Source of the DNA: Bradyrhizobium iriomotense
GTDB lineage: Bacteria > Pseudomonadota > Alphaproteobacteria > Rhizobiales > Xanthobacteraceae
Direction of reading: 5' to 3'
DNA length: 64,000 nt
Assembly: GCF_018130765.1 (NCBI RefSeq)
Contig: NZ_JAFCJZ010000005.1
Location: 310,001-374,000 of the forward strand
Shown in pieces: positions 4,972 to 29,413 of this stretch. The translations under genes and the position numbers were made by a program. How positions within the stretch are numbered: position 1 is the first letter of the stretch; each line of letters opens with the position of its first letter. The notes below the pieces were generated by a model. That model did not search any database. It was given only the letters and a program-made list of their open reading frames with translations, and was not told where the DNA came from.

Positions 4972-6465
4972 ATGACGCTCGAACGCGTGGATGGCTCTAA
5001 CTCCGTACAGCCCCAGCGATGGTGGCGCCGTTTGCTGCCGATCCAGACAATACAGGATCGGATTCTGCTGTGGGCTTGGGGTAGCCTTGTTTTGACCCTG
5101 CTGTCCTTCGCCTGCTCACTGCTTGGCGACAATTTCACGGCGATCGCTTTCGCCGCTTTTCTGGCCGCTTCGCTGACGCTCGTCGGCGCGATCATGGATA
5201 TCACGGCCCTGAAGAAGGCCCATACCGAGCTGGAGCGGAGCGAGCTGCGCTACCGCCATTTGTTCAGCCGGATGCCGATCGCATTCCGGCAGCTCGACGC
5301 CAGCAGGCTGGTCGCACTGTTTCGAAAGTTGCGCGCCGAGGGCGTCAAGGATCTCGGCGCCTATTTCGACAGCCATCCCGAGTTTCTGCGGACCTGCATG
5401 GATGCACTCTCGTTTCAGGAGGCCAATGAACGAGCCATCCAGATGTTCGGAGGAGGCGTCGAGGGCTATGTCGGACGTTCCATGGCCGAGAGCTGGAAGG
5501 AGCGACCCGATACGTTCCGGCGGGCCATGGAATCCCGTTATCGCGGCGAGACCAATTTCGAGGAAGAGACCAGAATGGTCACGTGGGACGGCCGCGTCGT
5601 CGACGTTCTCTTCACGACCGCGCGCGTCGGCCCCATCAATGATCTCGAAGTCAGCCTGGTCGGCACCATCGACATCTCGCAGCGTATTCGCGCGCAGCAG
5701 AAGCTCCAGCAGGTGCAGGCCGAGTTCGCGCATGCCGCGCGGGTCTCGATGCTCGGCGAGCTCACCGCCTCGATCGCCCACGAAGTCAATCAGCCCCTGG
5801 CCGCCATTGCCACCAACGGCGCCGCCGGGCTGCGGTGGCTGAACAGGCCGACACCCGACATCGCCGAGATTCGCAAGACCATCGAACACATCGTCGTGGA
5901 CACCCAGCGCGCCGCGAACATCGTTGCGCGCGTTCACCGAATGGCCTCGCGGAAAGCCCCCGAGCAGGAATCCCTGTCGTTTGACGAGATCATTCGCGAA
6001 GCGCTTCTGTTCCTGCGGCACGAGATGGAATCCCGCAACGTAGCGATTCTTCATCGACCTGACCCGAGCGAGCCGCAGGTGTTCGGTGATCGCACCCAGC
6101 TGCAACAGGTGATCGTCAATCTCGCCATCAACGCAGTGCAGGCGATGACGCAAGCCGGATATGACGATCGCAGGATCGTCATCAGCACGGTCACGCAGGA
6201 CGCGGCCACGCTGTGCTGCTCCGTGGAGGACAACGGTCCCGGCATCGCTGCCGAACATGTCGGCCGGCTCTTCGAAAGCTTCTTCACGACCAAGGAGAGC
6301 GGCATGGGCATGGGGCTGCCCATCTGTCGGTCGATCGTCGAAGCACATGGAGGCCGGATCGGCGCGGAGGGCAGCGCCACGCATGGCGGCGCGCGCTTCT
6401 GGTTCACCCTGCCGATTTCCGCAGCGCCGGCTTCGCCGCGGTCCGATCTCCGTGCGGATGCCTGA
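4972..6465 (+). CDS. PAS-domain sensor histidine kinase (orphan)
   Basis: A 497-residue membrane kinase. Two hydrophobic segments at about 31-52 and 56-77 are joined by a very short loop, so there is no periplasmic sensor. A PAS-like region spans about 88-235 and ends in the PAC-type VGTIDISQRI. The dimerisation box has the phosphorylatable His270 in SIAHEVNQPL. The ATPase domain shows the N box NLAINAVQ (383-390), DNGPGI (420-425) and GMGMGL (444-449). The class resembles FixL/DctB-like HPK4 kinases. There is no response regulator beside it: the gene to the right is convergent, and the one to the left is the thioesterase 95 bases away. Signal unknown. Confidence 0.92.
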   Translation: MTLERVDGSNSVQPQRWWRRLLPIQTIQDRILLWAWGSLVLTLLSFACSLLGDNFTAIAFAAFLAASLTLVGAIMDITALKKAHTELERSELRYRHLFSRMPIAFRQLDASRLVALFRKLRAEGVKDLGAYFDSHPEFLRTCMDALSFQEANERAIQMFGGGVEGYVGRSMAESWKERPDTFRRAMESRYRGETNFEEETRMVTWDGRVVDVLFTTARVGPINDLEVSLVGTIDISQRIRAQQKLQQVQAEFAHAARVSMLGELTASIAHEVNQPLAAIATNGAAGLRWLNRPTPDIAEIRKTIEHIVVDTQRAANIVARVHRMASRKAPEQESLSFDEIIREALLFLRHEMESRNVAILHRPDPSEPQVFGDRTQLQQVIVNLAINAVQAMTQAGYDDRRIVISTVTQDAATLCCSVEDNGPGIAAEHVGRLFESFFTTKESGMGMGLPICRSIVEAHGGRIGAEGSATHGGARFWFTLPISAAPASPRSDLRADA

Positions 6466-6482: not shown

Positions 6483-8780
6483 TTACCCCTGTTGCTCCGG
6501 GCCGGCCGAGCGCACCAGACGGATCGGGACACCCTTGTATGACGGCGTGAAGCTGAGGGGGTCGCGGGCATAAAGCGGCACCAGCGGATTGGTCTCCGGA
6601 TAATACGCCGCACAGCAGCCGGCCGGGAAGGAATAGGCGACGGTGCGGAAGTTGCGCACGATCCGCTCGGCGCCGTCGGTGGAGGCGGTGATCAGGTCGA
6701 CGCGGTCGCCGTCGGCCAATCCCCGCTTCTTCAGCTCGTATTCGTTGAGGAACACCACGTCGCGCTGGCCGAACACGCCGCGGTAACGGTCGGACATCGA
6801 GTAGAGCGTGGTGTTGTACTGGTCGTGGCTCCGTATGGTGGTGAGCCACAGGAAATCATCATCGCTCTGCGGCGGGTCCTCGCCGCAACCCGGGAAGACC
6901 AGGAAGTTCGCCTTGCCCGACGGTGTCGCCCAGATGCGTTCGCGCGCCGTCGAGGTGAGATGGAAGCCGCCGGGCACGCGGATGAGGGCATTGTAGCCCT
7001 GGAAGATCGGGAACACCGCCTCGATCGCATCGCGGATGCGGTCGTAGTCGGCAACGAAGCCGTCCCAGTCGACCACCGTGCGCTCGCCCAGCGTCGCCTT
7101 GGCGACGCCGGCGATGATCGCGACCTCGCTGAGCAGATGCTCCGATGCCGGCTTGTTGCGGCCGCCGGACGCATGCACCATCGACATCGAGTCCTCCACC
7201 GTGATCGACTGCGGCCCCGATGCCTGGATATCGATCTCGGTGCGTCCGAGACACGGCAGGATCAGGGCGGCGCGGCCGTGGATCAGGTGGCTGCGGTTGA
7301 GCTTGGTCGAGACGTGGACGGTGAGATCGAGCTTGCCGAGGGCTGCCTGGGTCGCCTGCCAGTCCGGAATGGCGGCGGCGAAATTGCCCCCCATCGCGAA
7401 GAAGGCCTTCACCTCGCCGCGGATCATGGCTTCCAGCGCGGTGACCACGTTGTGCCCCGGCGCGGACGGAGGCTTGAAGCCGAAGCGTTGCTCCAGTCGC
7501 TCGAGGAAGTCCGCCTTCGGGACTTCCGTGATCCCCACGGTGCGATCGCCCTGCACGTTGGAATGGCCGCGAACCGGGCAGACGCCGGCGCCCTCGCGCC
7601 CGACATTGCCGCGCAACAGCGCGAGGTTGGCGATCTGCTGGACGTTGTTCGCACCGCGCCAATGCTGGGTGATGCCCATGCCGTAGACGAGGATGGCGCG
7701 CTCCGCCTTCCTATAGGCGCCGGCTGCATATTCCATGTCCTCGCGCGTCAGGCCGGACTGGCGTTCGATGTCTGGCCACTGCGTGCGCTTGAGATCGTCG
7801 ATCAGCGCCTCGACGCCGACGGTGTGACCGCGGATGAAATCCCAGTCCAGGATCTCCGGCTGCTCGGCGGCGCGGGCGGCCTCGTCCGCCTCGACCAGGA
7901 CCTTCATGATCCCCTTGAGGACGGCGACGTCGCCGCCGACCCGGACCTGGAAGAGCTTCGAGCTGATCGTCGTCGACGACAGCGTGATCATCTCGACCGG
8001 GCTCTGCGGCGCCTGGAAACGCTCCAGCGCCCGCTCGCGGAACGGGTTGAAAGAGATGATGGAGGCGCCGCGGCGCGCCGCATTGCGCAGGCTGGTCATC
8101 ATCCGCGGGCTGTTGGTTCCCGGGTTTTGGCCGAAGATGAAGATGCAATCGGCCTTGTCGAAATCTTCCAGCAGCACGGTGCCCTTGCCGACGCCGAGCG
8201 AGTGCGGCAGGCCGACGCTGGTCGCCTCATGGCACATGTTCGAGCAGTCGGGGAAATTGTTGGTGCCGTATTCGCGCACGAAGAGCTGGTAGAGGAAGGC
8301 GGCTTCGTTCGAGGTCCGCCCGGAGGTGTAGAACTCCGCCATGTTCGGATCCGGCAACGCCTTCAGCTCACGCCCGATCATGTCGAACGCATCGCTCCAC
8401 TCGACCGGGAGATAGCGGTCGGATGCGGCATCGTAGGCCATCGGATGGGCGAGCCGACCGACCATTTCGAGATCGTAGTCGCTCCAGCCCGCAAGTTCCG
8501 TGACGGTATGCTCGGCGAAGAATTCGGGCGTGCAGCGCTTCGACGTCGCCTCCCAGGCGATCGCCTTGCCGCCATTCTCGCAGAATTCGAACGACGATGT
8601 GTGCTTCGGATCGGGCCAGGCGCAGCCGGGACAATCGAAGCCCTCCGGCTGGTTCATCCGGCGGAGCGTCGCCGCGCCCTTCAGCGGCACCCGCTGCACC
8701 AGCAGCGCCTCGCTGAGCGCCTTGAGTGCGCCCCAGCCGCCGGCAGGTTCACGGTAGGGACGAACCGATTTCGTGGTCAT
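6483..8780 (-). CDS. FdhF/YdeP-family molybdopterin oxidoreductase (formate dehydrogenase-like)
   Basis: A 765-residue cytoplasmic molybdopterin enzyme of the YdeP/FdhF group, normal length for the family. The N-terminus has Cys50-Pro-Gly-Cys53-Ala-Trp, a family hallmark. A likely molybdenum ligand is Cys183 in SNMCHEATS, where FdhF has selenocysteine. Cofactor-binding runs include FGQNPGTNSPRMM and the C-terminal molydopterin dinucleotide domain beginning near TTIRSHDQYNTTLYS. The start at 8780 (MTTKSVRPYREP) is chosen over an in-frame start 54 bases upstream because family similarity begins there. The physiological substrate of YdeP proteins is unsettled; formate is favoured here because an oxalate decarboxylase is divergent and fdhD lies in the same region. 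Confidence 0.88.
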   Translation of the reverse strand: MTTKSVRPYREPAGGWGALKALSEALLVQRVPLKGAATLRRMNQPEGFDCPGCAWPDPKHTSSFEFCENGGKAIAWEATSKRCTPEFFAEHTVTELAGWSDYDLEMVGRLAHPMAYDAASDRYLPVEWSDAFDMIGRELKALPDPNMAEFYTSGRTSNEAAFLYQLFVREYGTNNFPDCSNMCHEATSVGLPHSLGVGKGTVLLEDFDKADCIFIFGQNPGTNSPRMMTSLRNAARRGASIISFNPFRERALERFQAPQSPVEMITLSSTTISSKLFQVRVGGDVAVLKGIMKVLVEADEAARAAEQPEILDWDFIRGHTVGVEALIDDLKRTQWPDIERQSGLTREDMEYAAGAYRKAERAILVYGMGITQHWRGANNVQQIANLALLRGNVGREGAGVCPVRGHSNVQGDRTVGITEVPKADFLERLEQRFGFKPPSAPGHNVVTALEAMIRGEVKAFFAMGGNFAAAIPDWQATQAALGKLDLTVHVSTKLNRSHLIHGRAALILPCLGRTEIDIQASGPQSITVEDSMSMVHASGGRNKPASEHLLSEVAIIAGVAKATLGERTVVDWDGFVADYDRIRDAIEAVFPIFQGYNALIRVPGGFHLTSTARERIWATPSGKANFLVFPGCGEDPPQSDDDFLWLTTIRSHDQYNTTLYSMSDRYRGVFGQRDVVFLNEYELKKRGLADGDRVDLITASTDGAERIVRNFRTVAYSFPAGCCAAYYPETNPLVPLYARDPLSFTPSYKGVPIRLVRSAGPEQQG

Positions 8781-9026
8781 CTCGATGTCTCTCGATCTGG
8801 CAATTCTCCGGCGAGTTAAGGATTGGGCGGGCATGGCCGTCTTCTCAAAACGACGTGGAATTTCTCAATTGCACACGTTCGGTCCCAGCCGTCCTGCCAC
8901 AGCAGCCAGTGCGTTCCGGCAAAAAGAGCGCTGTTCCCGGAAGCTGAAACCACGGGCGGAAACTAGGCTTGGCGGTTGGAGCCCGTCGCCACGGAGGGCT
9001 TTCGACAATTTCAGGAGCGCCCCAAG
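8781..9026. promoter_or_regulatory. Divergent intergenic region between molybdoenzyme and oxdC genes
   Basis: These 246 bases must hold the promoters of both divergent genes. An AGGAGC ribosome-binding site sits at 9013-9018, deciding the oxdC start at 9027. No clear sigma-54, FNR-type or ECF general-stress motif was recognised by eye. Confidence 0.5.
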
Positions 9027-10274
9027 ATGTTTTCAAGACGTGATCTGCTGGCCATGTCTGCGGCAGGTGCCGCCATGGTCGGCTCCAGTGCGCAGGCCGC
9101 AACCTTCGGCAATCCCGATGAGCCGCCGCAAGGCGCCATCAACGCCAAGAGCCCCGGCAGCCTGACCGATCCCGGTCCGCAGAATCCCGCACTGGCCAAG
9201 CAGTTTCCCTCCGCGCAGACCCCGCCCGCGACCGACGTCGGCGGCCTGCCGATGGATTGGGCCTCGTTCAACAATGCGCCGAAGCGTATCCAGAATGGCG
9301 GCTGGGCCCGTCAAGTCACCGTCGAGGATTTTGCCATCTCCAAGGAGATCTCCGGCGTCAACATGCGCTTGTCTGCCGGCGGCATCCGCGAGCTGCATTG
9401 GCATCAGGCCGCCGAATGGGCGATCATGACCTACGGCAGCTGCCGCATCACCGTGCTCGACACGCAGGGGCGCCCCTATGTCGGCGACCTCAAGGCCGGC
9501 GACCTCTGGTACTTCCCGCCGGGCGCGCCGCATTCGCTGCAGGGCCTGGGTCCCGACGGCTGCGAGTTCGTGATCTGCTTCGACGACGGCCACGCTAACG
9601 AGTTCAACACGCTGCTGGTGACAGACTGGCTCGCCCATACGCCGCCCGAGGTGCTGGCCAAGAACTTTGGTGTGCCCGCGGACGCCTTCGCCAAAATACC
9701 GCTGCACAATCTCTGGATCTTCCAGGGGACGGTGCCCGGCGATCTCGCCGCCGATCGCGCCGCAATCGCCAAGCATGCGGAGGCACCGCCCTACCCCTTC
9801 ATCCATTCGCTCGGCAGCTCAGCCCCGGTCAAGGAGAGCTCCGCCGGCAGCATCCGCGTTGCCGACAGCAGCAACTTCAAGGTGGCCACCACCGTCGCTG
9901 CGGCGCTGGTGACGATGCCGCCGGGCGCGGTCCGGGAGATGCACTGGCACCCGAACGCCGACGAGTGGCAGTACTACATCAAGGGCAAGGCGCGGATGAC
10001 GGTGTTCGACACCGGCCCCAACGCGCTGACAACGGATTTCTCGGCCGGCGACATTGGCTATGTCCGGCGCAATCTCGGCCATTATGTCGAGAATATCGGC
10101 GACACAGAGCTGCAGTTCGTCGGCGTGTTCCGTGCGCCGCGCTACGAGGAGGTCTCGCTCTCCAACTGGCTGACCCACACACCGCCCAAGCTGGTGGCCC
10201 AGCACTTCAACATCGACGAGAAGCTGGTCGCGCAATGGCCGGACAACAGCCCCGGCGTCATGCCCAAATCCTGA
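9027..10274 (+). CDS. oxdC: Tat-exported bicupin oxalate decarboxylase
   Basis: A 415-residue two-cupin protein that should convert oxalate to formate and CO2 with manganese, outside the cytoplasm. The N-terminus SRRDLLAMSAAGAAM is a twin-arginine signal, cleaved near residue 25. Cupin 1 has metal ligands His124, His126, Glu130 and His169; cupin 2 has His306, His308, Glu313 and His352. The lid loop between the cupins reads DDGHANEFNT, in which Glu192 aligns with the catalytic lid Glu162 of Bacillus OxdC, supporting decarboxylase rather than oxidase activity. The loop is not a perfect SENS match, so activity should be tested. AGGAGC precedes ATG 9027. A terminator follows at 10297. Confidence 0.88.
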   Translation: MFSRRDLLAMSAAGAAMVGSSAQAATFGNPDEPPQGAINAKSPGSLTDPGPQNPALAKQFPSAQTPPATDVGGLPMDWASFNNAPKRIQNGGWARQVTVEDFAISKEISGVNMRLSAGGIRELHWHQAAEWAIMTYGSCRITVLDTQGRPYVGDLKAGDLWYFPPGAPHSLQGLGPDGCEFVICFDDGHANEFNTLLVTDWLAHTPPEVLAKNFGVPADAFAKIPLHNLWIFQGTVPGDLAADRAAIAKHAEAPPYPFIHSLGSSAPVKESSAGSIRVADSSNFKVATTVAAALVTMPPGAVREMHWHPNADEWQYYIKGKARMTVFDTGPNALTTDFSAGDIGYVRRNLGHYVENIGDTELQFVGVFRAPRYEEVSLSNWLTHTPPKLVAQHFNIDEKLVAQWPDNSPGVMPKS

Positions 10275-10296
10275 ACGACTTCGGGCCCTGAATGAG

Positions 10297-10326
10297 AAAG
10301 GCGCCGAATCCGGCGCCTTTCTTTTT
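10297..10326. terminator. Rho-independent terminator shared by oxdC and cydB
   Basis: AAAGGCGCCG at 10297-10306 pairs perfectly with CGGCGCCTTT at 10311-10320 around a 4-base loop, followed by CTTTTTATT on the + strand. It sits 22 bases after the oxdC stop. The complementary strand gives TTTC after the stem, so it may also stop the leftward cydB transcript, which ends at 10351. Confidence 0.85.
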
Positions 10327-10350
10327 ATTCGCAGTTTGAGCGTGTCCCCG

Positions 10351-11337
10351 TCAGTAGTGATCCACCGCCGCAGCCGTCTTGCCTCGGAAGACGCGATAAC
10401 CAACCGCGACATAGAGCAGCATCAGCGGAAAAACGAACAGGCCGGCGCCCCAGAACATGAAGGCGAGACTTGCATGCGGCGCCGCGGCCTCGTCGATCGT
10501 CACGACAAACGGAATCATATAGGGCCAGAACGACAGGGCGAGCGTGCCGAACGCCGCCGCGAAGATCAGTGAAACCATGTGGAATGGCCAGTAATCGTCG
10601 TGGCGCAGAATGCTCGTGGCGAGCACTGCGGCGGCACCCGCACCGATGAGGGGAAACAGGAAAAGATAAGGCCGCTCGATCCATCGGCGGAGAATCGGCA
10701 GATGCTCGATAAGGGCATGCGTGAAGACGACGACGAGGAAGGCCAGCACGGCAACCGCGAGCAACGGGATCTGGCGCCGCGTGGCTTCGCGGATCGGACC
10801 CTCGCACTTCCTCACCAGCCAACAGGCCCCGAGCAGCGCATAGCCGAAGCACAGGCCGACCCCGCACAAGACCGAAAAGGCTGTCAGCCAGCCGAAGGTG
10901 CCGCCGACATATTCGCCGTTGGAAAATTGCAGTCCCTCGACGAGCGCTCCGACCATCGCGCCCTGCATGAAGCTTGCGGCAAACGATCCCACGGTGAAGC
11001 TGATGTCCCACACCCGGCGCGAGCGCGAGGCCTTGCCGCGAAATTCGAACGCGACACCGCGCAGGATCAATCCGAGCAGCATGACCACGACCGGGATGTA
11101 GAAGGCCGGCATCAGCATGGCATAGACCACGGGGAACGCACCCCACATGATCACGCCGGTGACGACCAGCCAGGTCTCGTTGCCATCCCAGACCGGCGCG
11201 ATCGTGCGCAGCATCGCCTCACGCCTCGCCTCGCTGCCTGCAAGGCCAAACAGCATGCCGACGCCGAGGTCGAATCCGTCCAGAAGGAGATAGATCAGGA
11301 TGCTGATGGCAAGAAGCGCAACCCAGAACATCACCAT
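10351..11337 (-). CDS. cydB: Cytochrome bd-type quinol oxidase subunit II
   Basis: A 328-residue integral membrane protein with about eight or nine hydrophobic segments. It is the second subunit of a bd-type quinol oxidase that reduces O2 without pumping protons. Family traits are the DGFDLGVGML motif at residues 20-29 and the WDGNETWLV motif near residue 50. It starts at ATG 11337, two bases after the cydA stop, so the two are co-translated. A GTG-ATG pair just inside offers an alternative start two codons later. It is the last gene of a long leftward operon and ends at the shared terminator. No cydX-like small subunit or cydDC assembly exporter is visible. Confidence 0.93.
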   Translation of the reverse strand: MVMFWVALLAISILIYLLLDGFDLGVGMLFGLAGSEARREAMLRTIAPVWDGNETWLVVTGVIMWGAFPVVYAMLMPAFYIPVVVMLLGLILRGVAFEFRGKASRSRRVWDISFTVGSFAASFMQGAMVGALVEGLQFSNGEYVGGTFGWLTAFSVLCGVGLCFGYALLGACWLVRKCEGPIREATRRQIPLLAVAVLAFLVVVFTHALIEHLPILRRWIERPYLFLFPLIGAGAAAVLATSILRHDDYWPFHMVSLIFAAAFGTLALSFWPYMIPFVVTIDEAAAPHASLAFMFWGAGLFVFPLMLLYVAVGYRVFRGKTAAAVDHY

Positions 11338-11339
11338 GG

Positions 11340-12740
11340 CTATTCTCCCGCTTCGGCGATTGCCGGCATTTTGTCGGCGAGCGACATCGGCCGGTTGGGC
11401 ACCGGGACATGCAACGGCTTGCCGACGAGTCCCGCCGGACCGGCGCGCAGCAGCCGGTAGATGTAGTAGGTCCCGAACGAGAAGATGAAGGCATAGACCG
11501 CGACGAAGAGAATCAGCGAGGTCAGCGCGGCGGACGCCGTCAGGAACGGCGTCACGGCATCGGCGGTCCGCAACACGCCGTAGACCGTCCAGGGCTGGCG
11601 GCCGACTTCCGCGGTGTACCAGCCCGTGAGAATGGCGATCCACGGCAGCGGGAAGCTCAGGAAGATGCCCCACAGCAGCAGGCGGCTCCGATCGAGCCGG
11701 TGCTTGAGGCCGAGCCAGCTCCCGAGCCAGGCCAGCCCCAGCATCACGAAGCCGCAGCCGACCATGATGCGGAAGGCGAAGAACGGGATCGCCACCGGCG
11801 GCCGGTCCTGCGGCGCGAAGCTGGCCAGCCCGACCTCCTTCGACGTCAGACTCATGCTGCCGATGATGCTCCCGAGCACGGGGATCGATATCGCGTATTT
11901 GTTCGATTCGGTGTTCGAATCCGGAATGGCGATCAGCACCTCCGAGGCCGGCTGTTCATCATGCCAGCGCGCTTCGATCGCCGCGAACTTGGCCGGCTGG
12001 TAGTCGTGAACATAGTCGCCGACGAGATGCCCGATGAAGAGCTGGGCCGGAAGCAGCACCGCCGCAAGCGCAAGGCCCATCCGCAGCATGACATGCGCCT
12101 CGGCCCGATAGGTCCGCCGCAGCAGATACCACGCGCCGGTCGCCGCTACGCAGAAGGCGCCGGTGAGATATGAGGCAAGGAGCATGTGCGGGAAGCGCAC
12201 CCAGACCACGCGGTTGAAGATGATCTGCGCCCAATCATCAGGCACGAATTGGCCGTTCTCCAACACGTAGCCGGTCGGCACCTGCATCCAGCTGTTGTTG
12301 ACCATGATCCAGAACGCCGAAAGCGTCGTCCCGAGCGCGACCATCGCGGTCGAGAACAGGTAGAACCAGGGCGGCACCCGCGGCCGCCCGAAGATGAGGA
12401 TGCCGAAGAAGCCCGCCTCCAGCATGAAGGCGGTGAACGTCTCGTAGGACAGCAGCGGACCCTGGATCGGGCCCGACATCTTCGACAGCACGCTCCAGTT
12501 CGTGCCGAACTGAAACGCCATCACCACACCCGACACCACGCCCATGCCGAATGCCACGCCGAAGATCTTCAGCCAGAATTCGAACAGGGTCCGGTAGACG
12601 GGCTTGCCGCTGTACTGGTGCATCGCTTCGAGCACGGTGAGCCAGGCTGCAAGCCCGATCGTGAACGCCGGAAAGATGATGTGGAACGAGATGGTGAAGG
12701 CGAACTGCAGCCGCGACAGGAGGAGTGCCGTCGGATCCAT
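11340..12740 (-). CDS. cydA: Cytochrome bd-type (CIO-like) quinol oxidase subunit I
   Basis: A 466-residue membrane protein, the length of the short Q-loop or cyanide-insensitive oxidase (CioA) class rather than the roughly 520-residue E. coli CydA. His20 in FTISFHIIFP is the conserved N-terminal heme ligand. The GRQPW motif in TAEVGRQPWTVYG is the quinol oxidase signature near heme b558/b595. It oxidises quinol in the cytoplasmic membrane and transfers electrons to O2. It follows mqo by 15 bases and precedes cydB by two, suggesting that malate-derived quinol is used by this oxidase under low oxygen or cyanide/sulfide stress. Confidence 0.94.
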   Translation of the reverse strand: MDPTALLLSRLQFAFTISFHIIFPAFTIGLAAWLTVLEAMHQYSGKPVYRTLFEFWLKIFGVAFGMGVVSGVVMAFQFGTNWSVLSKMSGPIQGPLLSYETFTAFMLEAGFFGILIFGRPRVPPWFYLFSTAMVALGTTLSAFWIMVNNSWMQVPTGYVLENGQFVPDDWAQIIFNRVVWVRFPHMLLASYLTGAFCVAATGAWYLLRRTYRAEAHVMLRMGLALAAVLLPAQLFIGHLVGDYVHDYQPAKFAAIEARWHDEQPASEVLIAIPDSNTESNKYAISIPVLGSIIGSMSLTSKEVGLASFAPQDRPPVAIPFFAFRIMVGCGFVMLGLAWLGSWLGLKHRLDRSRLLLWGIFLSFPLPWIAILTGWYTAEVGRQPWTVYGVLRTADAVTPFLTASAALTSLILFVAVYAFIFSFGTYYIYRLLRAGPAGLVGKPLHVPVPNRPMSLADKMPAIAEAGE

Positions 12741-12755
12741 CGGACAACCTCCCGT

Positions 12756-14294
12756 TCAGGCCCGCTTGGCGACCGCCGGCGCGCGTGCGGCCGGCTGCGG
12801 AATGTTGTCGACCTTGAGGACCGCCGCCGTCGCGGCACGAATCTGACGGCAGAAATCCGCATCGTCGATCAGCGATACGCCGTAGGACGGGACAATCTGC
12901 TTCAGCTTCGGCAGCCAGGCGCTGGCCGTCAGCTCGCCGGCGAAGCACTTCTCCAGCACGCTGATGGCGATGAATGCCGCGGTGGAGGCGCCCGGCGAAG
13001 CGCCGAGAAGGGCGACCAGCGAATGATCGTCCGCGCCGACCAGCTCAGTTCCGAACTCGAGCAATCCGCCGCGCTTGACGTCAGGCTTGATGATCTGGAC
13101 GCGCTGGCCCGCGACCTGCAATCTCCAGTCCTTCGGGTCGGCCTTCGGGAAATATTCGTCGAGCGCCGCGAGCCGGTGGCCCTCGGATTGCAGCACCTGC
13201 CCGACCAGATATTCGGTGAGATCGAAATTATCGCGCGCCACCGACAGCAGCGGCTTGACGTTCGCGGGGCGAATGGACTCGAACAGGTCGAGCAGCGAAC
13301 CGTGCTTGAGGAACTTGCTCGAGAAGCCCGCATAGGGGCCGAACAGCAGCGAGCGCTGGCCGCCGATCACGCGCGTATCGAGATGCGGAACCGACATCGG
13401 CGGGGAGCCGACGGCGGCCTTGCCGTAGACCTTGGCATGATGACGCTTGTTGATCTCCGGATCGTCGCAGCGCAGCCAGATCCCGCTGACGGGGAAACCG
13501 CCATAGCCGCGCCCCTCCGGGATGCCGGATTTCTCCAGCAGCGGCAGCGCGCCGCCACCGGCACCGATGAAGACGAATTTTGCGCGGACCGAGCGCACTT
13601 CACCGCTGTCGGTGTCGCGCACCTCGACGCGCCACCGTCCGCCCTGCTCCCGACCAAGACCGGTGACGCAACTGTTGTAGTGGACCGCGCAGCCCGGCTG
13701 GCTGACGAGATGACTGACCAGCAAATGCGTCAACGAACCGTAGTCGACATCGGTGCCGGTGATGATCCGCGTTGCGGCAATCGGTTCGTCGCCGCTGCGA
13801 CCGTCCATCACCAGGGGCGCCCATTCTGCAATCTTTTTGGGATCCTCGGTATGCTCCATGCCCTCATAGCAATGATGCGCCGACATTGCCTTGAACCGCT
13901 TCCGCAAGAAGTCGACGTTCTCCGCGCCGTGCACGAAGCTCATATGCGGCACCGGATGGATGAAGGACCGCGGATCGGCGATAGCGCCCCGCCCGACGAG
14001 ATAAGACCAGAACTGCCGGGACAGATCGAACTCGACATTGACCTGGAGCGCCTTGGAGATGTCGATGCTGCCGTCGGGCCGCTGCGGCGTGTAGTTCATC
14101 TCGCAATTCGCCGCGTGGCCGGTCCCGGCATTGTTCCAGGCGTCGGAGCTTTCCTGCGCACAGTCTCCAAGACTCTCCAGCATCTGGATCGACAGCGAGG
14201 GCTCGAGCTCCTTGAGAAAGACGCCGAGGGTCGCGCTCATGATGCCGGCGCCGATGAGGACGACGTCGGTTTCGCGATCGGAAGCTGCTGACAT
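12756..14294 (-). CDS. mqo: Malate:quinone oxidoreductase
   Basis: A 512-residue peripheral membrane flavoprotein that oxidises L-malate to oxaloacetate and passes electrons to quinone. The FAD fold is at the N-terminus (VVLIGAGIMSATLG, residues 11-24). WNNAGTGHAANCEMNYTP is a family-specific block. A second nucleotide-binding region FVFIGAGGGALPLLEKSG is seen near residue 240, and LLGASPGASTAAF near the C-terminus completes the Mqo pattern. Length is normal. It lies between a small cupin gene and cydA, after fumC, so fumarate to malate to oxaloacetate with electrons to a bd oxidase is encoded in one run. Start ATG 14294. Confidence 0.95.
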   Translation of the reverse strand: MSAASDRETDVVLIGAGIMSATLGVFLKELEPSLSIQMLESLGDCAQESSDAWNNAGTGHAANCEMNYTPQRPDGSIDISKALQVNVEFDLSRQFWSYLVGRGAIADPRSFIHPVPHMSFVHGAENVDFLRKRFKAMSAHHCYEGMEHTEDPKKIAEWAPLVMDGRSGDEPIAATRIITGTDVDYGSLTHLLVSHLVSQPGCAVHYNSCVTGLGREQGGRWRVEVRDTDSGEVRSVRAKFVFIGAGGGALPLLEKSGIPEGRGYGGFPVSGIWLRCDDPEINKRHHAKVYGKAAVGSPPMSVPHLDTRVIGGQRSLLFGPYAGFSSKFLKHGSLLDLFESIRPANVKPLLSVARDNFDLTEYLVGQVLQSEGHRLAALDEYFPKADPKDWRLQVAGQRVQIIKPDVKRGGLLEFGTELVGADDHSLVALLGASPGASTAAFIAISVLEKCFAGELTASAWLPKLKQIVPSYGVSLIDDADFCRQIRAATAAVLKVDNIPQPAARAPAVAKRA

Positions 14295-14336
14295 GGTCTT
14301 TTCCTTCGTTGGGTGTTGCTGTTGCGAATGGCTCGA

Positions 14337-14741
14337 TCAGGCCCGTGCCGATTGCCGCGCCTTGGCGCGGAACGGCACCTCTGCTCCCGGCCGCAGGATC
14401 ACGTAGGCACGGCGCCAGGACGAATCGTCGGTCAGTTTCCAGCTGTGCCCGGAGCCGGCAGTGTCTTCAGCCAAGAGGACATTGCCGGGATGGATCAGGA
14501 AGTGGTGACCGTCACGCGTCTGGAAATCGAGCGTTCCGCTCAGCGTGAGCACGAGCTGCCGGACCGGCGCGGTGTGCCAGGCGAAAGCGCCGCCCGATTC
14601 CGTCTCCTGGAAGGAGACGCTGACGGCATCGATCTTGCCGGTCAGGAAGTCGCCGCGCTGGCCCGGCTCCAGTTCGAGGAAGCCCTCCTCGAAATGCGAG
14701 TTGTTGTCTTCTCCGGTCCATAGACGCACACAACGGATCAT
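14337..14741 (-). CDS. Small single-domain cupin protein
   Basis: A 134-residue protein with one cupin barrel and no signal peptide. Visible strands include FAWHTAPVRQLVLTLSGTL (about 53-71) and FLIHPGNVLLAEDTAGSGH (about 81-99), where His residues could bind a metal, but the full HxH...E...H set is not complete. It is 13 bases downstream of fumC and 42 bases upstream of mqo, so it belongs to the same transcript. Similar small cupins are annotated only generically. A role in sensing or handling a TCA-cycle acid is inference from position. ATG 14741 is used; an upstream in-frame start is not needed. Confidence 0.75.
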   Translation of the reverse strand: MIRCVRLWTGEDNNSHFEEGFLELEPGQRGDFLTGKIDAVSVSFQETESGGAFAWHTAPVRQLVLTLSGTLDFQTRDGHHFLIHPGNVLLAEDTAGSGHSWKLTDDSSWRRAYVILRPGAEVPFRAKARQSARA

Positions 14742-14754
14742 CGTCTTTCTCCCT

Positions 14755-16191
14755 TCAGCTGGCTTTCGCGCCGATGGCGAGCGGCACCTTGATCTCGGCA
14801 ACGTAGGGCCTGACCATCTTGGCGGGATCGACGATGCGGTCGAACTCCGGCTCGGTGACGAAGCCCAGCTTCAGCGCCGCCGACTTCAGCGTGAGGTCGT
14901 TGTCCATCGCGTAATGCGCGATCCGCGAAGCCTTGTCGTAGCCGATCACCGGTGCAAGCGCGGTCACGAGCATCAGCGACCGCTCGACATATTCCTGGAT
15001 CTTCTTGCGGTTCGGCTCGGTGCCCTCGACGAGGAAGGTGCGGAAATTGGTGCAGCCGTCGGCGAGGATGGTGATGGACTGTGCGATGTTGTGAATGATC
15101 AGCGGCTTATAGACGTTCATCTCGAGATAGCCGCCGGCGCCGCCGAATCCGACCGCGACATCGTTCGCCATCACCTGCACGGCGATCATCGTCAGCGCTT
15201 CCGCCTGCGTCGGATTGACCTTGCCCGGCATGATCGAAGAGCCCGGCTCGTTCTCGGGAATTTTCAGCTCGGCGAAGCCAGCGCGCGGACCGCAGGACAA
15301 AAGGCGGATATCGTTTGCGATCTTGTAGAGCGAGCCGGCGAGCGTGCGCAGCGTGCCGGAGAGCTGCACCAGCGCGTCGTGCGCGCCCTGCACGGCGAAC
15401 TTGTTCGGCGCACTGACGAAGGGCAGGCCGGTCAACCGCGCGATCTCGGCGGCAACGGCTTCCGCAAAGCCGGGTGCTGCGTTGATCCCGGTACCCACGG
15501 CCGTGCCACCCAGCGCCAGGCGGTAGACGCCCTTCAGCGCGTCGTCGATGCGCGCCAGATTGTCGGCAAGCACGACGGCGTAGCCAGACCATTCCTGACC
15601 GAGCGTCAGGGGCGTTGCATCCTGCATGTGAGTTCGGCCGATCTTGACGATGTCGTCCCACTGGCTCGACTTTGCCGCGATGCCGTCGTGCAGGGCTTCG
15701 ACCGCGGGGACTAGGCGCTCCGTCACATTCAGCGCGGCCGCGATGTACATTGCTGAAGGGAAGCTGTCATTCGACGATTGCGACATGTTGACGTGATCGT
15801 TCGGGTGAACCGGAAGCTTGCTGCCGAGCGCGGTGCCCGCGATCTGGCTGCAACGGTTCGAGATCACCTCGTTCACGTTCATGTTGAACTGCGTTCCACT
15901 GCCCGTCATCCAGACATGGAGGGGGAACATGTCGTGATGCTGGCCGGCGAGGATCTCGTCGCAGACGTGGACGATCAGCTTGTGGATCTTGCCGTCGAGA
16001 CGACCGCCTGCGTAATTGGCGTTCGCTGCTGCCTTCTTCAGGATCGCGTAGGACTGGATCATTTCGCGCGGCATCAGGTCCCTGCCGATGCTGAAATGCT
16101 CGAGCGAGCGCTGCGTCTGCGCACCCCAGAGCTTGTCCGCGGGAACGTTCACTTCACCCAGGCTGTCTGTCTCTTTGCGGAGGTCGTTCAT
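14755..16191 (-). CDS. fumC: Class II fumarate hydratase
   Basis: A 478-residue cytoplasmic iron-independent fumarase interconverting fumarate and L-malate. The family signature [11 protein letters not shown] is intact, with the flexible catalytic serine in it. Other blocks are [28 protein letters not shown] and [11 protein letters not shown], which supply substrate-binding Thr, Ser, Asn and His residues. The start ATG 16191 ([14 protein letters not shown]) was chosen because family similarity begins there; 38 upstream in-frame codons lack it. Class II enzymes resist oxidative damage, which fits the peroxidase, cytochrome and bd oxidase context. It is 13 bases before the small cupin gene. Confidence 0.95.
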
Positions 16192-16332
16192 CCCAGCCTC
16201 TCGTGGTAGTTGATGTCGGAAGCATCTTGTCGGCACTGACCGAAAGTGTACGGACCACCCGGCGCACACGCTTCCGCGAACGAACGTCCTTTTGCCGAAT
16301 GGCATGGCAGGCGCCCCGGCAGACGAGCAATG

Positions 16333-17001
16333 TCAGTGCGAATGGCCTGGGTGCCGGCAGAGCCAGAGAACGCATGCCGACGACGCGATCGGCAGAGCGA
16401 GGCTCCACGTACCGAGCCACCTCGTCACGCAGGCGCCGACCGCGGCGCCCGACAGGAACATCAGGCAGAGCACAAGCATGGCTCTCGCGCCGCGCGCCGC
16501 ATCGCCATCGGAACCTGCAACGAGCTGATCGATGGCGCGGAGCATGTTTCCGGTGACGGTGACCGAGAGATAATTCCAGCGGCCGACCAGCCTGAAGCTC
16601 GCCGATTGCAACGCGACGCCGAAGGAGATGACTGGGATCGCGACCTCGTCGGGAACACGATGAAGCATCAGCATCGCCGCGGCCAGGCACACGATCTCCC
16701 CGACGAGACAGCGCAGCGCCGCCCGGCTGCGAACCGCCACCAGCGATCCCAGGACGAAGGCCACGGGCGGAAGCAGGTGGTGAAGCGCACGCTGCCATTG
16801 CCCTGATAGCGCATAGATCCCGAGGAAGACGACATTGCCGGTCTGCGAACTCGCGAAGACGCCAAGCGACAGCCACGTGAAGGCGTCGAGGAAGCCTCCC
16901 GATATGCTGAGCACGGAAGCAACCAATAACGATCGTTCCGGAGCGAAGACCTCGACGCGCGTCTCGGCCAGGGGTTCCGGTGATGCGGCTTGCATCGCCA
17001 T
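16333..17001 (-). CDS. YoaK/DUF1275-family membrane protein
   Basis: A 222-residue protein with about six hydrophobic segments. The diagnostic opening is SGGFLDAFTWLSLGVFASSQTGNVVFLG, typical of DUF1275 (YoaK), and VTGNMLRAID is seen near residue 150. The molecular function of the family is not known. It follows fdhD by 18 bases in the leftward run and is separated from fumC by 141 bases, where another promoter could lie. The start could be ATG 17001 or the ATG two codons later. Confidence 0.8.
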   Translation of the reverse strand: MAMQAASPEPLAETRVEVFAPERSLLVASVLSISGGFLDAFTWLSLGVFASSQTGNVVFLGIYALSGQWQRALHHLLPPVAFVLGSLVAVRSRAALRCLVGEIVCLAAAMLMLHRVPDEVAIPVISFGVALQSASFRLVGRWNYLSVTVTGNMLRAIDQLVAGSDGDAARGARAMLVLCLMFLSGAAVGACVTRWLGTWSLALPIASSACVLWLCRHPGHSH

Positions 17002-17019
17002 GTCTGCAGACCCGCGCGT

Positions 17020-17856
17020 TCAGCAGCCGGCGCGCGAGGCGGCCTCTTCAGGCAGCAGGACGCGACGCGGATGCGTGAAGACGCCGTATCCGTCATCACG
17101 GGCGACGGCGAGCAGCGTGATACCCGCTTCGTTCGCGGTCTGGATGGCGAGCGCGGTCGGCGCGGAAACGGCGACGACGACCGGCGCACCCATCATCGCT
17201 GCCTTTTGCACCATTTCCACCGAAACGCGGCTCGTCAGCAGCACGGCGCCGTCGCGGGCCGAGCTGCCGTCGCGGACGATCGCACCGGCGAGCTTGTCAA
17301 GCGCGTTGTGTCGGCCGACATCCTCCCTGACCAAGGTTATGCCGGTACGGGGACGCCAGAACGCTGCTGCGTGAACGGATCGCGTCTGCTGGTTCAAGGT
17401 CTGGAGCGGAGACAACGCTTGCATGGCGCCCAGCAGGTCCCGGGCATGAAAGGCAATGCCGCGCCCCTCGACCCGCGACGGCGTACGACGCGCCTGTTCG
17501 AGGCTTTCGATGCCGCACAGCCCGCACCCGACCGGACCGCTGATGGCGCGGCGGCGCGCGGCCAGGTTCGCCGCGCGATCGCCATCGAGCCACATCCGCA
17601 CTTCCATGCCGAGCTCGTTCGAGATCAGCTCGATGCTCCGGATCTCGCTCGCACTATCGATGATGGCTTCGGTGAGGCTGAAGCCGACACCGAAATCCTC
17701 GAGATCAGCCGGCGTCCCCATCATCACGGCATGGGTCGATCCGTTGTAGGTGAGCGCGATGGCGCTCTCCTCGGCAACCAATCGCGACGTCGACGTCGTT
17801 CGGCCGCCGCGCCAGGCGATCTCGCGATGCCGCGTGAATGTCGAACCCGTCATCAT
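17020..17856 (-). CDS. fdhD: Formate dehydrogenase accessory sulfurtransferase FdhD
   Basis: A 278-residue cytoplasmic protein that carries sulfur from the cysteine desulfurase to the molybdenum cofactor of formate dehydrogenases. The sulfur-carrying Cys pair is Cys111 and Cys114 in GCGLCG. EDVGRHNALDKL near residue 180 is the second family block, and SRVSVEMVQKAAMMGAP completes it. Length is normal. It starts three bases after the HdeD gene stop. Its presence supports the 6483-8780 molybdoenzyme, or another formate dehydrogenase elsewhere, being active. Two adjacent ATG codons (17856, 17853) are possible starts. Confidence 0.94.
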   Translation of the reverse strand: MMTGSTFTRHREIAWRGGRTTSTSRLVAEESAIALTYNGSTHAVMMGTPADLEDFGVGFSLTEAIIDSASEIRSIELISNELGMEVRMWLDGDRAANLAARRRAISGPVGCGLCGIESLEQARRTPSRVEGRGIAFHARDLLGAMQALSPLQTLNQQTRSVHAAAFWRPRTGITLVREDVGRHNALDKLAGAIVRDGSSARDGAVLLTSRVSVEMVQKAAMMGAPVVVAVSAPTALAIQTANEAGITLLAVARDDGYGVFTHPRRVLLPEEAASRAGC

Positions 17857-17859
17857 GGC

Positions 17860-18459
17860 TCACGCCGTCGCCGGCTCGGCCGAACGCCGGGAAGCCCGGC
17901 TTCTGAGCGCGAGCCCGAATGCAATGAAGCCCCATCCCTGGAAGATCAGGTCGACGACCAGCATCGCACCGAGCAGCCACAGGCCGATGGAAGGCCAGGT
18001 CGCAACCAGCAATACGCCGACGCAGAACGTGACGACGCCCGCAGCGACGATCCAGCGCCAGCCCGCGGCCGGCCGCATGTGGAAGCCCGCCCAGATCCGC
18101 GTCACTCCGGCGACGACCAGGAAGGCGCATACCGCGAGCGACAGCGTCAACGAAGCCAGCAGCGGATCGTAGAGAATGACGGCGCCAGCGGCGCCATAGA
18201 CGATCCCGGCGAGCAGCCAGAACAGGAAGCCGCGCAGGCCCTGCACCGTAAAGGCATGCACGATCTGGAAGATCCCGGCGGCTGCCATGGTGGCCCCGAT
18301 GACGAGAACGGAGGCGAGACTCGCCGCCATCAGATTGGCTGACGCAATGCCGCCGAGGATCAGTTCACCGATCCCCAATGCAACGAACCAGCCCCACTTT
18401 CCAGAAATTGCGTGAATGGCCCTTCCGAGCGACGCTTTCGAGTTCGACACATCCGTCAT
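17860..18459 (-). CDS. HdeD family (DUF308) membrane protein
   Basis: A 199-residue protein with six hydrophobic segments arranged as two repeats of three, the DUF308/HdeD pattern. Typical pieces are WGWFVALGIGELILGGIA and ILYDPLLASLTLSL. HdeD in E. coli is linked to acid resistance at high cell density; the role in alphaproteobacteria is unclear. It lies three bases upstream of fdhD and 147 bases downstream of the cytochrome b561 gene. The C-terminus is Arg/Ser-rich and should be cytoplasmic. Confidence 0.82.
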   Translation of the reverse strand: MTDVSNSKASLGRAIHAISGKWGWFVALGIGELILGGIASANLMAASLASVLVIGATMAAAGIFQIVHAFTVQGLRGFLFWLLAGIVYGAAGAVILYDPLLASLTLSLAVCAFLVVAGVTRIWAGFHMRPAAGWRWIVAAGVVTFCVGVLLVATWPSIGLWLLGAMLVVDLIFQGWGFIAFGLALRSRASRRSAEPATA

Positions 18460-18606: not shown

Positions 18607-19170
18607 TCATTCTGCCGGCGTCGCCTTGTTCCGAAGCGGCAGGAGCGCGATCGTCGCGAAGACGCCGTCGCGGCGGAGCAATGCATGGAACAGCGCTGCC
18701 GCCAGATGCAGCAGCACAAGGGCAAAGAACGCGAAGCCGAGATAGAAGTGAGCATTCCACAGCAGCGTGTGCACACGGTCGCTCTGCGCCAGCAACGCCG
18801 GAATTCGGATCCCGCCGTACAGGACGACCGGATAGGCCGCAGCCCAGAGCATGCCGAGGCCCAACAGCGGCATGATGATCATGAAGCCATAGAGGGCCAG
18901 ATGCGACAATCGCGCTCCCAGCTTGATCGCCGGCGGAAGATCGTCCGGCAACGGCGGCGCGCCGTAATGGAGTCGCAGGGCCAGCCTGACCACGACGAGG
19001 ATCAGAAGAGTGACGCCGAGCGTCTTGTGGATCAGGATGAGCGGCAAATATTTGGGCGCCACGGTAGACACCATGCCGACGCCGATGAAGAGCATGGCGA
19101 TGATGCAGGCTGCCATCAGCCAGTGCAGAGACCGCTGGATCGGGGCGAAACGATGGGGCTCATTGCTCAT
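18607..19170 (-). CDS. Cytochrome b561
   Basis: A 187-residue four-helix di-heme cytochrome of the bacterial CybB type, which passes electrons between quinol and other carriers in the cytoplasmic membrane. Candidate heme ligands are His16 (IQRSLHWLMA), His48 (LILIHKTLG) and the His residues in the last two helices (NAHFYLGF, LLHLAAALFH). Its start overlaps the stop of the upstream peroxidase gene by four bases (ATGA), so the two are coupled. The pairing suggests that the cytochrome supplies electrons to the membrane-anchored peroxidase. Confidence 0.9.
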   Translation of the reverse strand: MSNEPHRFAPIQRSLHWLMAACIIAMLFIGVGMVSTVAPKYLPLILIHKTLGVTLLILVVVRLALRLHYGAPPLPDDLPPAIKLGARLSHLALYGFMIIMPLLGLGMLWAAAYPVVLYGGIRIPALLAQSDRVHTLLWNAHFYLGFAFFALVLLHLAAALFHALLRRDGVFATIALLPLRNKATPAE

Positions 19171-20219
19171 GGCTTGGCGGCCCCGGTTCGCGGATAGTCT
19201 CGGGCTTCGGCCGCACGCAGATCGTAGGACTTGCGATAGACCGACGAGCGCGCGGCCGGGAACGGATCGTCCGACGGCCGGATCCCAGGCGGCAGCACGG
19301 TCGGATCAAAGTTGACGTCGCGGCACGGTCCGTCCCGCTCCTGTTCGATCCGCTGCACGACGAGCGTTCCGACCTGCACCGTATGGCGGCTCTCCGGCCA
19401 GGCCTTGCTCGGGTCCGCGGTCGGATCACCGGGATCGGCGACCGTCGTGACCATGCTCCAGCGTTGCGGGCCGGATGCGCGGACGCGTTCCACGATCTCC
19501 TGCTCGAGAAAATCCGGACCGCGCTTGTCCAGCTCGGCTTGCGAAATTGGGGTGACCTGCGCCATCGGCAGCAGCGACCATCGCACCGCGTGCTCGCCGC
19601 CCTTCGCATCTGTGAAGATGAAACTGTTGAGCCCGTGATAGGGCTCCTCCGCATAGCTGGCGGTCCAGGGCGCCGTCTTGGCCCAGGTCGCGAAGGCGGC
19701 GAATTCCGGATTGGCCTGGATGAACGTCTTCATCGCCTCCGGATCCTTCTTGCCGGATGCAATCAGCAGGTCGTGAAATGCCTGCGGCGTGGAAACTGCA
19801 AAGAACGGCGGGTTGATCAGCGCCATCCGCCACTCTTCGCCGTCCGCCGCGATCTGCAATCCCAAACCGCGCACCCGCACGGTTGCATCCACGGCGTTCG
19901 GATCGGCGGTGCCGAGATTGAAGCGGCCCAGCGCCGGATGAGTGCCCCGTTCAAACACCCTGGCCCGCGAGAGCTCCAGGCCATTTCCGTTCGCTTCGAA
20001 GACGCCGGTGAAGCAGATTCCCTTGGCGTGATTTCGCCGGTGCCCGAGCGGCGCGCCGCTCGGAGGCGTCAGCGCCGCGATCATCCGCTCCGGCGTCAGG
20101 CGACCCGGCGAGAGCCAGCCCGCAGTATATGCGAACGCGGCAGCACCGCCTCCGAGGACGACCGCAATCAACACGAGCGAGCCGAGTCCCGAGCGCGGCA
20201 GGTTGCCTGACTGATTCAT
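19167..20219 (-). CDS. Membrane-anchored catalase-family peroxidase (SrpA-like)
   Basis: A 350-residue short heme peroxidase of the catalase superfamily. A signal anchor lies at about residues 13-33. The distal His is probably His64 in GHRRNHAKGICFTGVF, and the Tyr-rich C-terminal block SSVYRKSYDLR contains the likely proximal heme Tyr. It is much shorter than true catalases (about 480 or more residues), which fits the catalase-related peroxidases that reduce peroxides with an electron donor. ATG 20219 follows GAGAAG. The coupled cytochrome b561 gene is the natural donor candidate. First gene of the long leftward run. Confidence 0.9.
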   Translation of the reverse strand: MNQSGNLPRSGLGSLVLIAVVLGGGAAAFAYTAGWLSPGRLTPERMIAALTPPSGAPLGHRRNHAKGICFTGVFEANGNGLELSRARVFERGTHPALGRFNLGTADPNAVDATVRVRGLGLQIAADGEEWRMALINPPFFAVSTPQAFHDLLIASGKKDPEAMKTFIQANPEFAAFATWAKTAPWTASYAEEPYHGLNSFIFTDAKGGEHAVRWSLLPMAQVTPISQAELDKRGPDFLEQEIVERVRASGPQRWSMVTTVADPGDPTADPSKAWPESRHTVQVGTLVVQRIEQERDGPCRDVNFDPTVLPPGIRPSDDPFPAARSSVYRKSYDLRAAEARDYPRTGAAKP

Positions 20220-21462: not shown

Positions 21463-21617
21463 GACTCTCTTCGCCCCCCAGACGAAAGTGATAGGCCCCG
21501 ATCCTTTACCCCAAAACTGCCGGATGTTACTTTTCGCGGACCACTACGTTCACACGTCTTGGTGTGCCTCCAAGTCATAGAACGTGACGAGTCGTGCGCC
21601 GGGTTGATATCTCCCAC

Positions 21618-28943: not shown

Positions 28944-29413
28944 GCTCGCGAACCGGAGCAAGTCCGGTTGACGCCGACTGGAAGTTGATCGTCTCAACGT
29001 TCCGGATTTCGACCTCTCGGCGGAAGGAAGAACGGCGGCTCACGATCAGGCCGCCGTTCTTGCGACTACCATATGTCTCTCTGAAGCAATTGTGCTCTGG
29101 CGTTCTTGCGCTGACGCTTCTCCGCTATGTGAGTAAATGATGCTTCCATTGATGGCATCAGGCTCCATTCGATCGTCTCTCATTGTGACACACTCCATAC
29201 GGCCGTCACGAATTCGTGTATCGAACACGAGCGCGTCGGGTGCCAGCATCGACGGTGAACGAAGCGCCGGCGACTGAGCGGGCGTTCTTGATACGCCGAC
29301 GACCTCCCCTATACGACACCTCAAGCGCCTTCTACGCTTTCCAAATTCTTGCCAAGGGTCGGTGATCTCAAGGGCGGTCTGGTAATTTCCCCCGGATCAC
29401 AGCAGCAAAGTTG
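28944..29413. other. Intergenic region, 470 bases
   Basis: Apart from the hairpin at 29028-29061 and the upstream region of regulator C, nothing gene-like is supported. A leftward open frame at 29046-29324 has no ribosome site and no recognisable protein features. Confidence 0.4.
29028..29061 (+). terminator. Perfect 12-bp hairpin, probable terminator
   Basis: AAGAACGGCGGC at 29028-29039 pairs with GCCGCCGTTCTT at 29050-29061 across a 10-base loop, 84 bases after the small secreted gene. It has only two T residues at its foot, so it may be a weak or Rho-assisted terminator or an RNA-stabilising element. Confidence 0.55.

Follow-up and report, generated by a model that had tools for sequence, protein, structure and literature searches.

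Why should the gene for an exported oxalate decarboxylase (OxdC) lie back to back with one for a molybdoenzyme of the FdhF/YdeP family, close to genes for the sulfurtransferase FdhD and a bd-type quinol oxidase (CydAB)? This arrangement is found in a stretch of 64,000 nucleotides (contig NZ_JAFCJZ010000005.1, positions 310,001 to 374,000; hereafter the window) from Bradyrhizobium iriomotense, a soil and root-nodule bacterium whose assembly comprises 8.38 Mb in 56 contigs; the closest named loci are 97% identical in the YdeP-type protein. A sequence-only reading had proposed that oxalate yields formate outside the cytoplasm and that formate oxidation, aided by FdhD, supplies the respiratory chain. 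Its description of the genes holds: oxdC, which encodes a protein with a twin-arginine translocation (Tat) type leader, intact metal ligands and an intact lid Glu, is divergent from the ydeP-type gene, and fdhD lies in the convergent run (10351-18459) together with cydAB and a malate:quinone oxidoreductase gene (mqo), with the family cut-offs passed (Table 1). From sequence comparison we consider it likely that the set forms an aerobic oxalate disposal module with formate as intermediate, in which oxalate is converted to formate outside the cytoplasm and formate to CO2 inside, with the electrons passing to O2 via quinone and CydAB.

In the first step of this module, exported OxdC would cleave periplasmic oxalate to formate and CO2 with the consumption of one proton. 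The YdeP-type protein is probably cytoplasmic, as no export signal was seen on inspection by eye, and formate must therefore cross the membrane. In this respect the proposed path from oxalate via formate to respiration has to be modified, while the path as such agrees with the recurrent linkage of ydeP, oxdC, fdhD, cydAB and genes for FNT-family transporters. Formate may enter as diffusing formic acid or via a carrier; some related clusters encode an FNT-family transporter. Once inside, formate would be oxidised to CO2 by the YdeP/Fdh4A-type molybdoenzyme of the cytoplasm, to whose cofactor the FdhD encoded nearby would supply sulfur, and the electrons would reach the quinone pool and finally O2 via the neighbouring CydAB. 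The net reaction would be oxalate(2-) + 2 H+ + 1/2 O2 -> 2 CO2 + H2O. Such a module would remove oxalate and formate, relieve acid stress and perhaps yield energy.

Gene neighbourhoods were compared in 77 loci gathered by similarity to the window YdeP-type protein, which are not a random sample. Bradyrhizobium contributes 39 loci, and in 37 of these oxdC is encoded on the opposite strand at a distance of less than 500 bp; of the remaining two, one has an OxdC match 647 bp off and the other (L076), whose ydeP match is partial, has none. Among the 38 loci from other genera, OxdC was found in three, L047 and two Neoroseomonas, the latter with the order oxdC-dps-ydeP-cydA-cydB on a single strand. 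A cydA gene follows ydeP on the same strand within less than 100 bp in 16 of the 38 (2 Neoroseomonas, 2 Ancylobacter, 10 Paraburkholderia, 1 Caballeronia and 1 Methylobacterium), two Paraburkholderia have cydA 1.6 kb upstream of ydeP, and 20 have no cydA in the stretch examined, some of these stretches ending near ydeP. The order ydeP-cydA-cydB is near-gapless in Bosea (gaps of 2 and 3 bp), Ancylobacter and Paraburkholderia. Plasmids were represented by 40 OxdC rows of 77 matched records and 60 YdeP rows of 418 matched records; at least nine of the 40 listed OxdC rows lie less than 20 kb from a YdeP match on the same record. The plasmid of Phyllobacterium zundukense carries oxdC-FNT-ydeP on one strand with gaps of 87 and 37 bp, that of Bradyrhizobium sp. 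184 a compact ydeP / oxdC / cydB-cydA-fdhD, that of Pantoea soli ydeP about 1.8 kb from oxdC, and an Agrobacterium plasmid FNT-oxdC plus moaA, fdhD and ydeP inside 20 kb. On further plasmids, FNT-ydeP was found in Phyllobacterium T1293, FNT about 7.5 kb from oxdC in Sinorhizobium B11, and oxdC near classical fdhF and fdhD in Granulicella, a member of another phylum. Loci L185-L191 and L201 were picked knowing or expecting linkage and hence show no frequencies. The neighbourhood of oxdC and ydeP is thus repeated in several lineages, where the two genes are adjacent in differing layouts, once with FNT between them, and the recurrence of ydeP, oxdC, FNT, fdhD and cydAB in rearranged layouts appears to us strong comparative support for a link from oxalate through formate to respiration.

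Of 157 loci, 60 have an OxdC match and 18 a Dps-type gene; of these 18, 17 also have OxdC, most of them from Bradyrhizobium (Dps-type genes at L084:9503-9934, L048:9407-9916, L186:11312-11881 and in Bradyrhizobium loci such as L022:3732-4163). The recurrent gene is located between oxdC and ydeP in Neoroseomonas, and in Phyllobacterium zundukense it shares 4 bp with the oxdC gene.

Co-occurrence across genomes, a check that the sequence-only reading had asked for, was found in samples of 249 genomes from the phylum and 337 from the class, which overlap in at least G004, G012, G024, G028 and G247. The YdeP-type family (TIGR01701) was matched in 50 genomes of the phylum sample, OxdC in eight and both in seven; the corresponding numbers in the class sample are 19, five and three. 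With the window genome excluded, a YdeP-type gene is present in 6/7 OxdC genomes versus 43/241 genomes lacking OxdC in the phylum sample (Fisher p 2.7e-4), and in 2/4 versus 16/332 in the class sample (p 0.015), where the OxdC genome G476 falls below the curated cut-off; these tests ignore kinship and genome size. The proposed help of FdhD to a formate dehydrogenase (FDH) is in line with the linkage in the phylum sample: of 61 YdeP matches in 60 stretches, 24 have fdhD no more than 6 kb away, about 0.2 being expected. This local scan around YdeP leaves out matches in G186 and G234, two genomes that the CydA and FdhD searches covered. Besides the window genome, three of 49 phylum-sample genomes have cydA near ydeP (G035, G091 and G166; 0.20 expected, P 0.0012). 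One of them, G035, is a Bradyrhizobium with the arrangement in common with the window by descent; in G091 the gap between ydeP and a downstream cydA is under 100 bp.

The pairing with cytochrome bd was followed in two quick trees. CydA and CydB of the window both score over the cut-offs of their families (PF01654 and TIGR00203), as expected of a cytochrome bd, and cydA is the sole PF01654 match in the genome at E 1e-20. In the YdeP tree (95 of 147 rows, thinned at 90% identity) the window protein falls in a 23-row clade (SH-aLRT 100) in which 15 rows have cydA within 6 kb. OxdC or FNT is near in all six rows of a second clade from Rhizobiaceae and Phyllobacteriaceae, five of them chosen plasmid loci. 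The fewest label changes on this tree are six for OxdC, five for cydA, 17 for fdhD and three for FNT, the labels depending on the length of DNA around each gene. In the CydA tree (37 of 75 rows) ydeP-linked CydA occur in several lineages, and the starred branches force at least four label changes. Therefore several different bd oxidases seem to be paired with a YdeP-type enzyme, as functional coupling predicts, in a number that is provisional because the tree is quick and gave long-branch warnings. A descent of the linked cydAB from one old operon was provisionally rejected on account of this scatter. The repeated clustering of oxdC, ydeP and cydAB suggests that formate oxidation by YdeP-type enzymes feeds a bd quinol oxidase and consumes protons. 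We offer only tentatively, and with more doubt than belief, the narrower idea that the window clade is a dedicated, soluble partner of cytochrome bd which passes formate electrons at or into the oxidase, the two together acting as a formate:oxygen oxidoreductase.

The view of the sequence-only reading that YdeP-type enzymes have no settled substrate did not hold, given the genetic evidence on formate in Methylobacterium and Pseudomonas putida (PMC10308882) and the proposals linking YdeP to oxalate (PMC3720670, PMC4283999). Fdh4A of Methylobacterium is cited as involved in formate oxidation, PP_0256, PP_4596, fdhD and cioAB of P. putida are induced on formate while complex I genes are lowered, and deletion of PP_0256-0257 reduces formate tolerance and was complemented (PMC10308882). 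For Escherichia coli, YdeP has already been proposed to remove oxalate-derived formate (PMC3720670, PMC4283999). Its YdeO, encoded close to ydeP, activates appCBA (bd-II), the binding to appC being unseen in vitro in the account given (PMC4222967). In Bacillus subtilis, acid and benzoate induce FDHs, fdhD and the FNT homologue yrhG, and external acid induces oxdC (PMC2788229). Searches of the open-access literature listed no paper that places oxdC together with ydeP or with an FDH in a single bacterial cluster, nor one on ydeP clustered with cydAB, subscription journals being mostly outside the search. New, as far as this search goes, is the recurrent clustering of oxdC, ydeP and cydAB; the formate genetics of YdeP types and the YdeP-oxalate proposals were known.

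Overproduction of YdeP alone can confer EvgS-driven acid resistance on E. coli at pH 2.5, a role for which, according to the authors, no explanation had previously been proposed (PMC4283999). This role, together with the HdeD-like, catalase-like and b561 genes near in the window, the Dps genes and the RND efflux genes of several neighbourhoods, would also suit an acid and oxidative stress island in which OxdC and YdeP are co-selected stress genes with no hand-over of formate. However, FNT, FdhD and classical fdhF recur beside oxdC or ydeP as well and point to formate itself, so that we regard a mere stress island as unlikely.

As a candidate formate dehydrogenase, the YdeP-type protein was compared with its relatives. 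Its gene starts with the ATG at 8780 or alternatively at 8834. The protein is 56% identical to E. coli YdeP over 754 columns and scores 1013 bits with the YdeP equivalog model PRK09939 (cut-off 1473); it is therefore assigned to the FdhF/YdeP family and not named YdeP itself. Numbered from the ATG at 8834, Cys201-His202 and Arg422 align with the FDH active sites of chains from 6tg9, 7qv7, 9t1s and 7vw6, and the FDH-type Cys-His pair and Arg are invariant in 147/147 YdeP rows, many of which are close relatives. In none of the 147 rows is the FDH motif RGQNN kept; it is RGHSN throughout, with His in place of the active-site Gln. The N-terminal [4Fe-4S] site of Mo/W FDHs has four Cys with the spacing CxxCxxxC...C. 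All YdeP rows possess CxxCx13C (P0001 positions 68, 71 and 85), and 78 of the 147 a further Cys, possibly forming an iron-sulfur site of unusual spacing. The invariant CxxCx13C and RGHSN (position 424) are hallmarks dividing the YdeP family from classical formate dehydrogenases. The predicted model (pTM 0.87) has its best fold match in E. coli FDH-H (1fdi, TMq 0.70), nearly equalled by periplasmic nitrate reductases (TMq 0.69), and the substrate is thus not settled by the fold. The exchange of Gln for His and the closeness of nitrate reductase folds would fit a reductase of oxyanions or oxides (chlorate, chlorite, nitrate, N- or S-oxides) that is no formate dehydrogenase, the more so as YdeP occurs alongside chlorite dismutase genes in metagenomes (PMC9751292) and is abundant in chlorate-reducing milk samples, an association that is not significant and is confounded by temperature (PMC13094775). 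With the FDH-type Cys-His and Arg invariant, fdhD, FNT and OxdC linked to ydeP and formate phenotypes in P. putida (PMC10308882), such a reductase is nevertheless quite improbable.

All eight metal ligands of OxdC are present (H124, H126, E130 and H169; H306, H308, E313 and H352, numbered from the M at 9027), as are the active-site residues R121 and R303 and the lid Glu E192, the residue roles following in part PMC10192776. From the same M the protein begins with MFSRRDLLAMSAAGAAMVGSSAQA, which we take to be a Tat-type leader by its SRRxFLK-like pattern. Family score, both ligand sets and lid Glu agree with an oxalate decarboxylase; the C-domain Glu333 of B. subtilis OxdC is replaced by Gly366 and is Glu in only 11 of 59 aligned rows, a position reported to vary outside Terrabacteria (PMC10192776). 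The kept lid Glu, present in 59/59 rows, argues for a decarboxylase. An oxalate oxidase making H2O2, with Dps, catalase and bd oxidase coping with the product, would account for the Dps and catalase-like neighbours and for the Gly at Glu333, but is scarcely credible, since oxidase activity is known from replacement of the lid and the linkage to FNT and FDH fits formate as product. B. subtilis OxdC has a minor oxidase side reaction, and one of this kind could explain Dps. In a second Bradyrhizobium genome (G035:C1:2690354-2691459, L125) the oxdC match is broken into two overlapping pieces beside an intact ydeP, the result of either a frameshift or a sequencing error.

Besides the active-site His and the fold shared with nitrate reductases, several points weigh against the proposed oxalate disposal module. 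OxdC is absent from 43 of the 50 YdeP genomes of the phylum sample, the Bradyrhizobium genome G200 has OxdC without YdeP, and the two genes lie apart in G107, G143, G151, G118, G178, G505 and G558, the nearest at 12 kb (G107). In most sample genomes with both, they are on separate contigs or hundreds of kb apart. As most YdeP genomes lack OxdC and the genes are mostly distant, OxdC would be one formate source among others. No YdeP-type gene is in reach in 10 of the 16 OxdC plasmid regions examined; the other six were chosen knowing that it was. In the window ydeP has no neighbouring gene for an electron-transfer subunit, and a soluble protein that reduces quinone is unusual. The chief doubts come from this lack of a partner, from the exchange of Gln for His and from the number of YdeP genomes that have no OxdC. 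The lone FNT-family match of the genome is on another contig (C16). A molybdoenzyme match below the TIGR01701 cut-off, perhaps a nitrate reductase, lies about 7.5 kb from it, and the FNT gene was therefore not counted as part of the module. The genome also has oxalyl-CoA decarboxylase and other FDH-like genes, so formate has other routes. Formate dehydrogenases with Cys instead of selenocysteine exist. The authors of one study thought it improbable that YdeP works as a classic FDH, since it carries Cys and not selenocysteine (PMC4283999). A P. putida fdhD mutant is cited as releasing near-normal 14CO2 from formate, and cioAB induction is tied by the authors to pH (PMC10308882). A genome-context analysis gave no specificity for the YdeP branch (PMC4257093).

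The genes of the run 18459-10351 share one direction, convergent with oxdC, and we infer that they form a single operon. A strong hairpin where oxdC and cydB converge is followed by T's and was equalled in energy by none of 200 shuffles; oxdC, ydeP and the fdhD-cydAB run therefore probably represent at least three transcription units. The genome encodes two more FdhD, whose genes lie 0.2 and 11 kb away from further FDH-like matches. Mqo, counted in the gene set by the sequence-only reading, is better left out: mqo and fumC are probably passengers, because nine Bradyrhizobium loci with fdhD and cydA (L020, L021, L022, L030, L031, L037, L040, L046 and L050) have no match to either in the stretch examined.

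Table 1 Features of the oxdC/ydeP region of the window
Feature	Position	Strand	Match or energy
FdhF/YdeP-family molybdoenzyme, probable cytoplasmic formate dehydrogenase	6483..8780	-	TIGR01701 1008 bits, cut-off 582
Tat-type bicupin oxalate decarboxylase OxdC	9027..10274	+	TIGR03404 565 bits, cut-off 254
Terminator-like hairpin between convergent oxdC and cydB	10290..10335	.	-25.7 kcal/mol, z -5.7
cydB, bd-type quinol oxidase subunit II	10351..11337	-	TIGR00203 144 bits, cut-off 117
cydA, bd-type quinol oxidase subunit I	11340..12740	-	PF01654 509 bits, cut-off 26.2
Malate:quinone oxidoreductase (mqo)	12756..14294	-	TIGR01320 717 bits, cut-off 550
Small cupin protein	14337..14741	-	weak Cupin_2 match, E 6e-4, below cut-off
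Class II fumarate hydratase (fumC)	14755..16191	-	TIGR00979 692 bits, cut-off 665
DUF1275 membrane protein	16333..17001	-	PF06912 116 bits
FdhD sulfurtransferase	17020..17856	-	TIGR00129 194 bits, cut-off 141
HdeD-like (DUF308) membrane protein	17860..18459	-	PF03729 55 bits; HdeD model 37 bits, below cut-off 189
Cytochrome b561, paired with catalase-like gene	18607..19170	-	PF01292 85 bits
Catalase-like protein, N-terminal hydrophobic segment	19167..20219	-	PF00199 69 bits

The catalase-like/b561 pair (18607-20219) is found near the cluster in Bradyrhizobium and adjoins ydeP-cydAB upstream in two Ancylobacter (L049:8113-9683; L073:8118-9682), where it is 70% identical. Histidine kinase and response regulator genes adjoin many ydeP (window 4972-6465; L191:14820-17729; L186:8437-11191; L188:22065-24730), 31 of 148 YdeP matches have a relative of the Bosea response regulator no more than 6 kb away, and the window kinase gene converges on ydeP; shared regulation is possible. 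RND efflux pump genes occur near several oxdC/ydeP clusters (window 1012-4473; L185:14407-17520; L186:3134-6304; L199:6762-9878). Three large proteins encoded close together (21594-24518, 24740-27619 and 29411-32320) each match an N-terminal Trans_reg_C DNA-binding domain and an ATPase-type domain.

If the YdeP-type proteins of the window clade were indeed such dedicated partners of cytochrome bd, they would together with OxdC allow extracytoplasmic oxalate to be respired with the consumption of protons, and this reaction, supplied with formate from elsewhere, would underlie the acid resistance that depends on YdeP in enterobacteria. Proton-consuming formate oxidation that feeds a bd oxidase could account for the role of YdeP in acid resistance, which has lacked an explanation. 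The clusters joining YdeP to OxdC, FNT, FdhD and a bd oxidase suggest a concrete, testable reaction for YdeP, and also that plant-associated bacteria have an aerobic, respiratory way of using oxalate.

Among known systems, Fdh4A of Methylobacterium extorquens and PP_0256 and PP_4596 of P. putida belong to the same family as the window protein by name and TIGR01701, and linkage to fdhD is common to window-type ydeP and PP_0256-0257 (PMC10308882). Unlike these, the window gene faces oxdC and is near cydAB. E. coli YdeP is regulated with oxc/frc under EvgA (PMC4283999); E. coli uses the cytoplasmic Oxc/Frc, whereas the window has OxdC instead, and the E. coli ydeP adjoins safA-ydeO and fimbrial genes and no cyd genes, in contrast to the window ydeP with cydAB nearby. 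OxdC of B. subtilis, likewise a bicupin, shares its metal ligands and lid Glu with the window OxdC, which differs in its Tat-type leader; the acid-induced FDHs of that organism belong to another family, and the genes of its acid response are not described in that study as one cluster (PMC2788229). Similar to type V oxalotrophy, where a single-step OxdC converts oxalate to formate (PMC10192776), the window would employ OxdC for this reaction, but here its gene is clustered with those for FdhD, a terminal oxidase and an enzyme that probably oxidises formate.

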